From assembly GCF_024298845.1 (NCBI RefSeq), contig NZ_CP101156.1, forward strand, positions 2,914,001-2,978,000: a DNA stretch of 64,000 nt. Direction: 5' to 3'. The stretch is from Natronosalvus amylolyticus (GTDB lineage Archaea; Halobacteriota; Halobacteria; Halobacteriales; Natrialbaceae). Position 1 is the first letter of the stretch; every line of letters starts with the position of its first letter. The position numbers were made by a program, and so were the translations under genes. The notes beneath the pieces were generated by a model. The model saw only the letters and a program-made list of their open reading frames with translations. It was not told where the DNA came from and ran no database searches. Shown one piece after another: positions 25,684 through 27,370 of the stretch.

Positions 25684-25717
25684 GGGTGGAGGGGCTATCT
25701 TTAGACAGCGAGAGAAT

Positions 25718-25735
25718 CCCGCCGTTCACGGCGGG
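25718..25735. repeat. Subterminal left-end hairpin of element 2
   Basis: Seven-bp arms CCCGCCG/CGGCGGG with TTCA loop, the same arms as element 1's hairpin at 13521-13538. Upstream GAGAGAAT is shared with the orphan left end at 10532. Confidence 0.75.
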
Positions 25736-25837
25736 CGTGAATCGCGTCACTCCACTACGCCAACTGCGAACTACAGCACTCTGAATACCCCACGCAGTCA
25801 GAACACATAAGGTACATAATATCGTACGAAGAAACGG

Positions 25838-25975
25838 ATGCGAGTTGACATCGCCATCGAACGTGGAAGCGACCTCCACGAACGAGTCAAAGAATACTCT
25901 CGTGAGAACGGCCTGCGAATGGACTTCGCCTACGCCGAACTCATCGAACAAGGACTTGACGCTGCTGAAGAATGA
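25838..25975 (+). CDS. 45-residue ribbon-helix-helix-like protein coupled to tnpB
   Basis: ATG 25838 to TGA 25975; the TGA overlaps the tnpB ATG (ATGA at 25972-25975). The sequence begins with a short strand (MRVDIAIERG), then two helices (DLHERVKEYSRENG and DFAYAELIEQGLDAAEE) in the layout of a CopG/Arc ribbon-helix-helix domain. Such domains dimerise and bind DNA through the strand. It lies between the left end and tnpB with normal GC-rich codons, so it is probably real. A role as autoregulator of the element is inference. It is too short for ordinary gene callers. Confidence 0.68.
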   Translation: MRVDIAIERGSDLHERVKEYSRENGLRMDFAYAELIEQGLDAAEE

Positions 25976-27291
25976 GCGAAGAGTGCAAGACACTCGAAGC
26001 GTATCTTGCCCCACCCACTCAGCACAAACAGCGCAAGCTCCACGACGAACACGCCCGATACGAATCATTGCTCCGTCGCAGTTTCAACAACGAATGCGAC
26101 ACGATGAGTGCCGTTAACGAGGTCGTCAGCGGTGAAGACCTCAACTGGCACTCGAAAAATGCACTCAAACAATACGTTCCCAACTTGCTCGATGCGGGCA
26201 CGTATGGCGCGACGCAACTCGCAGACGATCATCCAATTCGCTACGCGAACACCGCAGCCGTCTTCGACGTTGATGAAAACCGCCACCACGAAATCTGCTG
26301 GGAGGTTCCCCTTCCCGGTCGCGGGACGAACTTTTGGATTCCACTCCAACTGAACCCCGAGCAAGAAGACTGGTGGCATCCACTCATCGACGACGATGAT
26401 GAGTGCGTGTGGGCGGGCGAGATTCGCCTGCAACGCGACGGGACTCGCTGGGTGTTGCACGTCACCGCGAACTACGAAGTCGAAGCAAATCACTCGTGTT
26501 CGTGTGAAAGTGACGACGTAACGCCCGTCGGGTTCGACGTGGGCGAGTCGAAACTCTTGGTGGGCTGTGCCCTCCGAGACGACACGCCCGTCGACCCGTT
26601 GTTCGTGGATGGAGGTTGCGTCCGACACCTCCGACAAAAACAAGCCTCTGCCGAAGACCGCTTGAAACAGCGGTATGCCTCAAACCTCTTGGACGACCTC
26701 GTGTGGGGTACGTGGCAAGACGCCATCGAAGACAAAATCGAGAAAGCTTCCACACGAGCCGTTGAATACGCCTCCCAGTTCGAGAACCCGATTATCGTCC
26801 TCGAATATCTCGACGGTATCACGGACGAGGACCTCGGGAAGTACTGGAATCGGCGCCTCGGCAAATGGCTGTTCTCTCGGTTACAGTCACGTATCGAGGA
26901 GAAGGCAGCGGAACGCGGTATTTCTGTGGAATACGTGTATCCGCATCACACGTCGAAGACGTGTCACGCTTGCCAACACATCGGGTACAGGCCGCATCAG
27001 GGCACGTTCAAGTGTACGAACGAGGAGTGCTGGGTGTCGGAGTATCAGGCGGATTTGAACGCAGCAGCGAATATAGCCAATCGGTTGAATCCGTGGGGAG
27101 AGAGTCTGCCTTGGAAATCGGCAGGCGATGACTCGCTACGGAGTGGGGGCCAGTGGCAGGCCCACGAAGACACGTCACCGAGGGAGGGACTCCCGTCCGA
27201 GAGGCGGGCTTCCGATGACAAGGTTTCGTCTAGCTCACCATCGGTGGAAGCGGGGGCGAAGCCGGAGACCGGTGACGCGCACACGTCTTGA
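25972..27291 (+). CDS. tnpB: TnpB RNA-guided nuclease with canonical active site
   Basis: 439 residues. RuvC-I Asp189 in VGFDVGESKLL, canonical RuvC-II Glu278 in IIVLEYLDGI, zinc-ribbon cysteines 331, 334, 348 and 353 (TCHACQHIG, FKCTNEECW), and RuvC-III Asp361 in YQADLNAAANIANR. The complete D-E-D triad predicts an active nuclease. It is distant from TnpB of element 1, which uses a different Glu position. The C-terminal tail after about 375 is Ser/Glu/Gly-rich and coincides with the right-end RNA scaffold. Start at ATG 25972, which overlaps the upstream RHH-like stop. Confidence 0.93.
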   Translation: MSEECKTLEAYLAPPTQHKQRKLHDEHARYESLLRRSFNNECDTMSAVNEVVSGEDLNWHSKNALKQYVPNLLDAGTYGATQLADDHPIRYANTAAVFDVDENRHHEICWEVPLPGRGTNFWIPLQLNPEQEDWWHPLIDDDDECVWAGEIRLQRDGTRWVLHVTANYEVEANHSCSCESDDVTPVGFDVGESKLLVGCALRDDTPVDPLFVDGGCVRHLRQKQASAEDRLKQRYASNLLDDLVWGTWQDAIEDKIEKASTRAVEYASQFENPIIVLEYLDGITDEDLGKYWNRRLGKWLFSRLQSRIEEKAAERGISVEYVYPHHTSKTCHACQHIGYRPHQGTFKCTNEECWVSEYQADLNAAANIANRLNPWGESLPWKSAGDDSLRSGGQWQAHEDTSPREGLPSERRASDDKVSSSSPSVEAGAKPETGDAHTS

Positions 27292-27370
27292 AACCTCAAT
27301 CCCAGTCAGTCTGGGTATTCCCTCTGTGAGGGAAGCCCCGGCGTTCACGCCGGGCGAGGATGTCACCCTG
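27292..27370 (+). ncRNA. Candidate omega RNA 3' scaffold of element 2
   Basis: Just past the tnpB stop are three stacked hairpins: 27301-27315 (CCCA/TGGG), 27320-27332 (CCCTC/GAGGG) and 27337-27354 (CCCGGCG/CGCCGGG, TTCA loop), ending in GAGGATGTCAC. The outermost flank (from about 27368) would be the guide. The structure fits a TnpB guide-RNA scaffold; expression is inferred. Confidence 0.45.

Follow-up and report, generated by a model that had tools for sequence, protein, structure and literature searches.

Small predicted ribbon-helix-helix proteins paired with TnpB in haloarchaeal IS1341-type elements are candidate autorepressors

The window analyzed here is a 64,000-nucleotide stretch of the Natronosalvus amylolyticus genome (NCBI RefSeq assembly GCF_024298845.1, contig NZ_CP101156.1, positions 2,914,001 to 2,978,000 of the forward strand), and coordinates below are positions within it unless another contig is named. 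It carries a transposon of the IS200/IS605 type (IS1341-like) in which a gene for a 45-residue protein with a predicted ribbon-helix-helix (RHH) fold overlaps the start of an intact tnpB gene. The locus comprises the following features.

25695 to 27366, + strand: the whole element (copy 1), with limits taken from the identity of two copies and a right end that agrees with other species.
25718 to 25735, no strand assigned: left-end palindrome CCCGCCGTTCACGGCGGG, read from the sequence; the same left end is present in RHH elements of other species, and a variant form in elements with tnpA and tnpB.
25806 to 25811, + strand: TATA-like box, CATAAG here and TTTAAG in most relatives, located 27-32 bases 5' of the start codon, its position conserved in upstream sequences.
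25811 to 25827, no strand assigned: putative RHH operator GGTACATAATATCGTAC, with GTAC half-sites at 25812-25815 and 25824-25827, 12 bp apart; conserved in clade A (described below) and also found there by pattern search.
25838 to 25975, + strand: gene for the 45-residue RHH protein, recognized by purifying selection and by a predicted fold that matches RHH proteins, CopG among them.
25972 to 27291, + strand: tnpB, 439 residues, with D189-E278-D361 and the zinc ribbon intact, from sequence and domain search.
27283 to 27366, + strand: putative scaffold of an omegaRNA, of which the 3' part is given, with a closing stem and three stem-loops; it overlaps both the tnpB end and the element's right end.
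27335 to 27355, no strand assigned: right-end palindrome GCCCCGGCGTTCACGCCGGGC, read from the sequence, its pairing kept in relatives.

The limits of the element were established with a second copy of the RHH-tnpB element in the same genome (G000:C1, approximately 806,680-808,360, with the RHH-tnpB unit at G000:C1:806826). The two copies are about 99% identical and have six differences over the RHH and tnpB genes. When they are aligned, identity starts abruptly at 25695 and stops at 27366/7, and the flanks are unrelated. Elements in other species share the conserved end GAGGATGTCAC followed by variable flank, and the right end was therefore set at 27366. Near-terminal palindromes are present at both ends. 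In a congener, the two neighboring genes stand without the element between them; that empty locus is too diverged for an exact reading of the target site. With mobile copies, subterminal palindromes, and a TnpB that carries the RuvC D-E-D residues and a zinc ribbon, this is an IS1341-type element. It has no gene for the Y1 transposase TnpA, and the RHH gene sits where sister elements have tnpA. Named relatives of the element come from Natrialbaceae, Halorubrum, Halovivax, and others, and a search of a phage collection gave no match. At loci L016, L020, L024, and L032, the loop of the left-end palindrome is enlarged by an inserted extra palindromic sequence.

A preliminary description of this DNA, made without database searches, had reported a 45-codon frame ending in an ATGA overlap with a complete D-E-D tnpB, both inside one element with matching ends. 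All of this held up. The ATG of tnpB lies at 25972 and the TGA of the small open reading frame (ORF) at 25973-25975, exactly as reported, and the two-copy comparison and the palindromes at each end place both genes in one element. TnpB retains RuvC residues D189, E278, and D361 together with all four cysteines of the zinc ribbon, and it is matched by the Pfam family Cas12f1-like_TNB (E 2.9e-15). The source genome has 21 matches to the TNB domain, and only the two copies of the element at 25695-27366 have the RHH gene.

Beyond tnpB, the consensus RNA fold of the right end includes 28 pairs, 7 of which show a change on both sides. Because the stem-loops are conserved with two-sided changes, the end is fixed, and sequences diverge right after it, we read this region as a putative omegaRNA scaffold directly followed by a guide, which would begin at 27367. 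An Rfam search of the right end found no sot family and gave only sub-threshold matches to HgcC and a CRISPR repeat.

The small ORF is under purifying selection and is a real gene; in public records it is either called hypothetical or not annotated. Over 41 shared codons, the within-clade ratio of nonsynonymous to synonymous substitution rates (dN/dS) is 0.105 in clade A, 0.077 in clade B, and 0.160 in clade C, and TnpB of clade A has a value of 0.119. Variable sites in clade A RHH genes fall 12/5/29 at codon positions 1/2/3. The other two forward frames of the same DNA show the opposite pattern, with pN/pS values of 1.3 and 2.2 and about two stops per sequence, so that a chance ORF is ruled out. 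In a few elements the RHH gene is intact although tnpB is broken.

Structure prediction indicates that the protein has an RHH fold, with CopG as the first match. An AlphaFold2 model of the window protein, built with 23 sequences (pLDDT 84), has helices at residues 12-24 and 28-44 after an extended N-terminus. With a first model (pLDDT 79), Foldseek had already placed CopG (1ea4) at rank 1, with a TM-score of 0.71 in both directions over the full length and a weak E of 1.9. A second comparison used the better model and a broader alignment, and RHH proteins fill nearly all of its first 26 rows; the leading rows not counted as such are a designed peptide and a few unchecked entries. Leading matches include CopG, MazE-mt10, PutA, ORF56, MatP, Arc, AmrZ, NikR, FitA, and omega, over 42-44 residues with Z-scores of 3.4-5.3. 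An HU-like fold was also considered and rejected, as its matches in the first comparison cover only 35-36 helix residues and mostly vanish with the broader alignment. The relatives are 42-53 residues long and consist of the core plus a short variable tail, as in CopG.

The preliminary description had treated a lack of protein selection, or a predicted fold other than RHH, as grounds for abandoning its proposal; neither was found. Of its strand-helix-helix layout, the two helices stand, and the strand is visible only as the extended N-terminus. The monomer model leaves it unassigned, as expected for RHH proteins, whose strands pair only between the subunits of a dimer.

The same description had proposed looking for homologs upstream of other haloarchaeal tnpB genes, whose absence would also have counted against it, and these exist in several clades. 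Of 293 haloarchaeal genomes, 117 contain relatives according to a profile search with the RHH protein only, blind to TnpB, and across these roughly 290 genomes strong relatives almost always adjoin tnpB. Clades A (RVDIAI...), B (RTEIDM...), and C (RADFDM...) are immediately 5' of tnpB genes from one TnpB subfamily, with the RHH end overlapping the tnpB start by 4 nucleotides in A, about 11-17 in B, and about 26 in C. Type E (ERHLRVDL...) lies a few bases 5' of tnpB from a second subfamily. Type D (MRPNIDIS...) is divergent from tnpB of a third subfamily at the left end of the element, mostly with 37-51 bp between start codons. A same-strand adjacent tnpB accompanies 15/15 members of clade A, 24/25 of B, 7/7 of C, and 5/5 of type E, and 40-41 of the 43 divergent type D genes are beside tnpB. 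The clade B exception is an orphan RHH gene on a Halorussus limi plasmid.

Some type D loci depart from this arrangement. A type-D-like RHH domain is fused N-terminally to a protein of about 350-380 residues and unknown function in several haloarchaea, including the source genome (L003 at G000:C1:1001931, L237-L241, L248, and L249), with no TnpB beside it; these are possibly domesticated RHH domains. At L136 (G019:C1:3442965-3446096), a type D RHH gene overlaps or abuts a gene for a 557-residue predicted membrane protein rather than tnpB. In the variant elements L039 and L127, about 270 bp separate tnpB and RHH, and in L039 this gap holds an additional 77-residue ORF, zinc-ribbon-like with CxxC, that runs into the RHH start.

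The promoters of these genes were examined for repeated half-sites. Alignment columns were shuffled jointly to keep relatedness, and a family-wise p was computed on the promoter segment. Repeats with 12-bp spacing lie between the TATA-like box and the start codon in clade A (GTAC-N8-GTAC, an inverted repeat; p 0.017), clade B2 (CTTACA-type; p 0.013), clade C (CTTACG-N6-CTTACG; p 0.003), and type E (CTAAC-type; p <0.01). In type D, the repeats are GTC-type, spaced by 8 bp, and lie in the intergenic promoter (p <0.01). Among the four groups with 12-bp spacing, the letters of the half-sites vary at that constant spacing, and residues of the N-terminal strand vary too. No significant repeat was found in the control promoters of tnpA (0.43) and solo tnpB (0.17). 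Three clade C tnpB loci without an RHH gene (L086, L087, and L095) still show TTACG repeats, located 5' of the TATA-like box, and these might answer to RHH protein made elsewhere.

The preliminary description had suggested that a DNA-binding partner could control TnpB dosage, which fits the half-site repeats in the promoter. We consider it probable that the main role of the 45-residue protein is to repress the RHH-tnpB promoter as a CopG/Arc-like autorepressor encoded by the first gene of a TnpA-less IS200/IS605 transposon. We infer DNA binding, repression, a leaderless transcript, and copy control along the following lines. RHH dimers would bind GTAC-N8-GTAC, which lies 3' of the TATA-like box and ahead of where the probably leaderless RHH-tnpB transcript begins, an operator position that fits repression of such a transcript. 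Blocking this promoter would hold down RHH, TnpB, and the omegaRNA, which would be the 3' part of the same mRNA, and the ATGA overlap would couple translation of TnpB to that of RHH. Because the repressor would act in trans, more copies of the element would yield more repressor, resulting in copy-number control of the guided nuclease.

Several observations weigh against this interpretation. Clade B1b has no significant repeat (p 0.22), the repeat peak in clade B1a is at 14 bp rather than 12 (p 0.03), and the shuffles probe repeat structure, not function. Furthermore, the tiny size of the protein keeps the structural Z-scores (about 5) modest. Searches of Pfam, NCBIfam, and PDB sequence profiles gave no RHH assignment above cut-off, with RHH_10 (E 0.16) and an NCBIfam RelB-like model (E 0.009) both below it; the assignment comes from fold comparison.

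Scanning the whole genome for the operator gave numerous weak matches, including the two element copies, at a level little above the reversed control; a host regulon beyond the element is therefore unsupported. The scan also bears on whether the RHH gene is a passenger kept by linkage and without a role in the element, for example as a regulator that benefits the host. Such passengers would be consistent with the type D domains fused to unrelated proteins, with the RHH gene that adjoins a membrane-protein gene, and with the intact RHH genes beside broken tnpB. We nevertheless regard this as very improbable, given that operator copies in the genome are not above background and that RHH genes show near-complete linkage and fixed-geometry pairing with three TnpB subfamilies, with repeats at their own promoter.

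Comparison of related TnpB genes provides a further view of the RHH gene. Among 122 TnpB genes of the window's subfamily, a sample enriched for RHH by loci that came from RHH searches, the 5' side carries RHH in 45, tnpA in 34, and neither in 43. These labels are clustered on the TnpB tree, a quickly built one in which many forks are weak. On the best tree RHH needs seven changes, and well-supported branches force no fewer than three of these. Within one tight clade, tnpB genes that are 92-93% identical in DNA are preceded by either tnpA or RHH, and the tnpB match begins at the same codon near the tnpB start, forming a sharp junction. Where tnpA takes the place of RHH, the element likewise has the CTATCTT start, and its left palindrome is related. 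RHH and tnpA are exchangeable cassettes, which suggests that RHH elements are mobilized in trans by TnpA from sister elements.

The shared cassette position, together with the left-end core and CTATCTT start common to RHH and tnpA elements, could also mean that RHH replaced the lost tnpA as a transposition accessory binding near the left end, either aiding or restraining TnpA in trans. We think this unlikely, since the repeats at 25811-25827 lie in the promoter, about 75 bp inside the left palindrome (25718-25735), and not at the hairpin or cleavage site; the type D repeats are likewise in the intergenic promoter.

The 43 solo genes and 34 genes with tnpA also bear on a toxin-antitoxin interpretation, in which the RHH protein would neutralize a harmful TnpB, or its cleavage of element-free chromosomes, by contact and would also repress the operon. 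A small RHH gene followed by a larger overlapping gene, with operator-like repeats, resembles the layout of type II toxin-antitoxin operons. The fold matches include MazE-mt10, FitA, VapB, and ParD, and the weak RelB-like match points in the same direction. However, TnpB does not need neutralizing, since sister elements carry tnpB without RHH. There is also no obvious partner-binding segment because the protein stops at the RHH core, with tails that are short and unconserved between clades. An antitoxin-like role is therefore no likelier, in our estimate, than the transposition accessory, and we continue to favor autorepression.

TnpB is the ancestor of Cas12 and among the most abundant prokaryotic proteins, and its nuclease-dead derivatives, TldRs, are transcription factors. 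The system described here resembles TldR in tying a TnpB-family protein to transcription control, but here TnpB keeps D-E-D and the regulatory role would fall to a separate RHH protein. It resembles CopG, Arc, and Sulfolobus ORF56 in size (45-56 residues), in its full-length fold match, and in short repeated half-sites over its own promoter, but its sequence falls below family cut-offs, and its proposed target is a transposon with an RNA-guided nuclease, where theirs are plasmid replication or a phage gene. With type II toxin-antitoxin operons that have RHH antitoxins it shares an RHH gene placed first, an overlapping downstream gene, and operator-like promoter repeats; it differs in having no partner-binding tail and in that the second gene encodes a guided nuclease that also occurs without RHH. 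IS1341-type TnpB elements of haloarchaea, with their 3' RNAs, are already known (PMC3119063, PMC8303175, PMC12558985, PMC10134880), and the omegaRNA-like right end has been described as sotRNA in Halobacterium (PMC8303175, PMC12558985). The present element shares with them near-terminal palindromes, the TnpB nuclease, the absence of tnpA, and an omegaRNA-like right end, and what sets it apart is the additional RHH gene, which forms an overlapping operon with tnpB or stands divergently. The pairing had not been recognized as a characterized module in the preliminary description, and we likewise found no description of it in open-licence literature, although it may be mentioned in ISfinder or in a subscription paper. 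Small RHH repressors and haloarchaeal TnpB elements are each known, and it is their pairing that appears new. Because annotation mostly labels the genes hypothetical or misses them altogether, this layer is easily overlooked.

Haloarchaeal IS1341-type elements combine high diversity with low copy number (PMC3119063), and the question addressed here is how TnpB-only elements restrain a guided nuclease and why each keeps its numbers low, the latter a matter raised there for haloarchaea. That a probable repressor gene can stand in for tnpA at a fixed junction suggests a route by which TnpB elements become non-autonomous and controlled. We put forward only tentatively, as somewhat doubtful, the broader idea of a general copy-control layer, in which RHH repressors, found in two orientations with three or more TnpB subfamilies and exchangeable with tnpA, serve as trans dosage sensors that set nuclease levels per family. 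If the proposed function is true, a dedicated repressor would make the question of nuclease restraint directly testable with a simple reporter.
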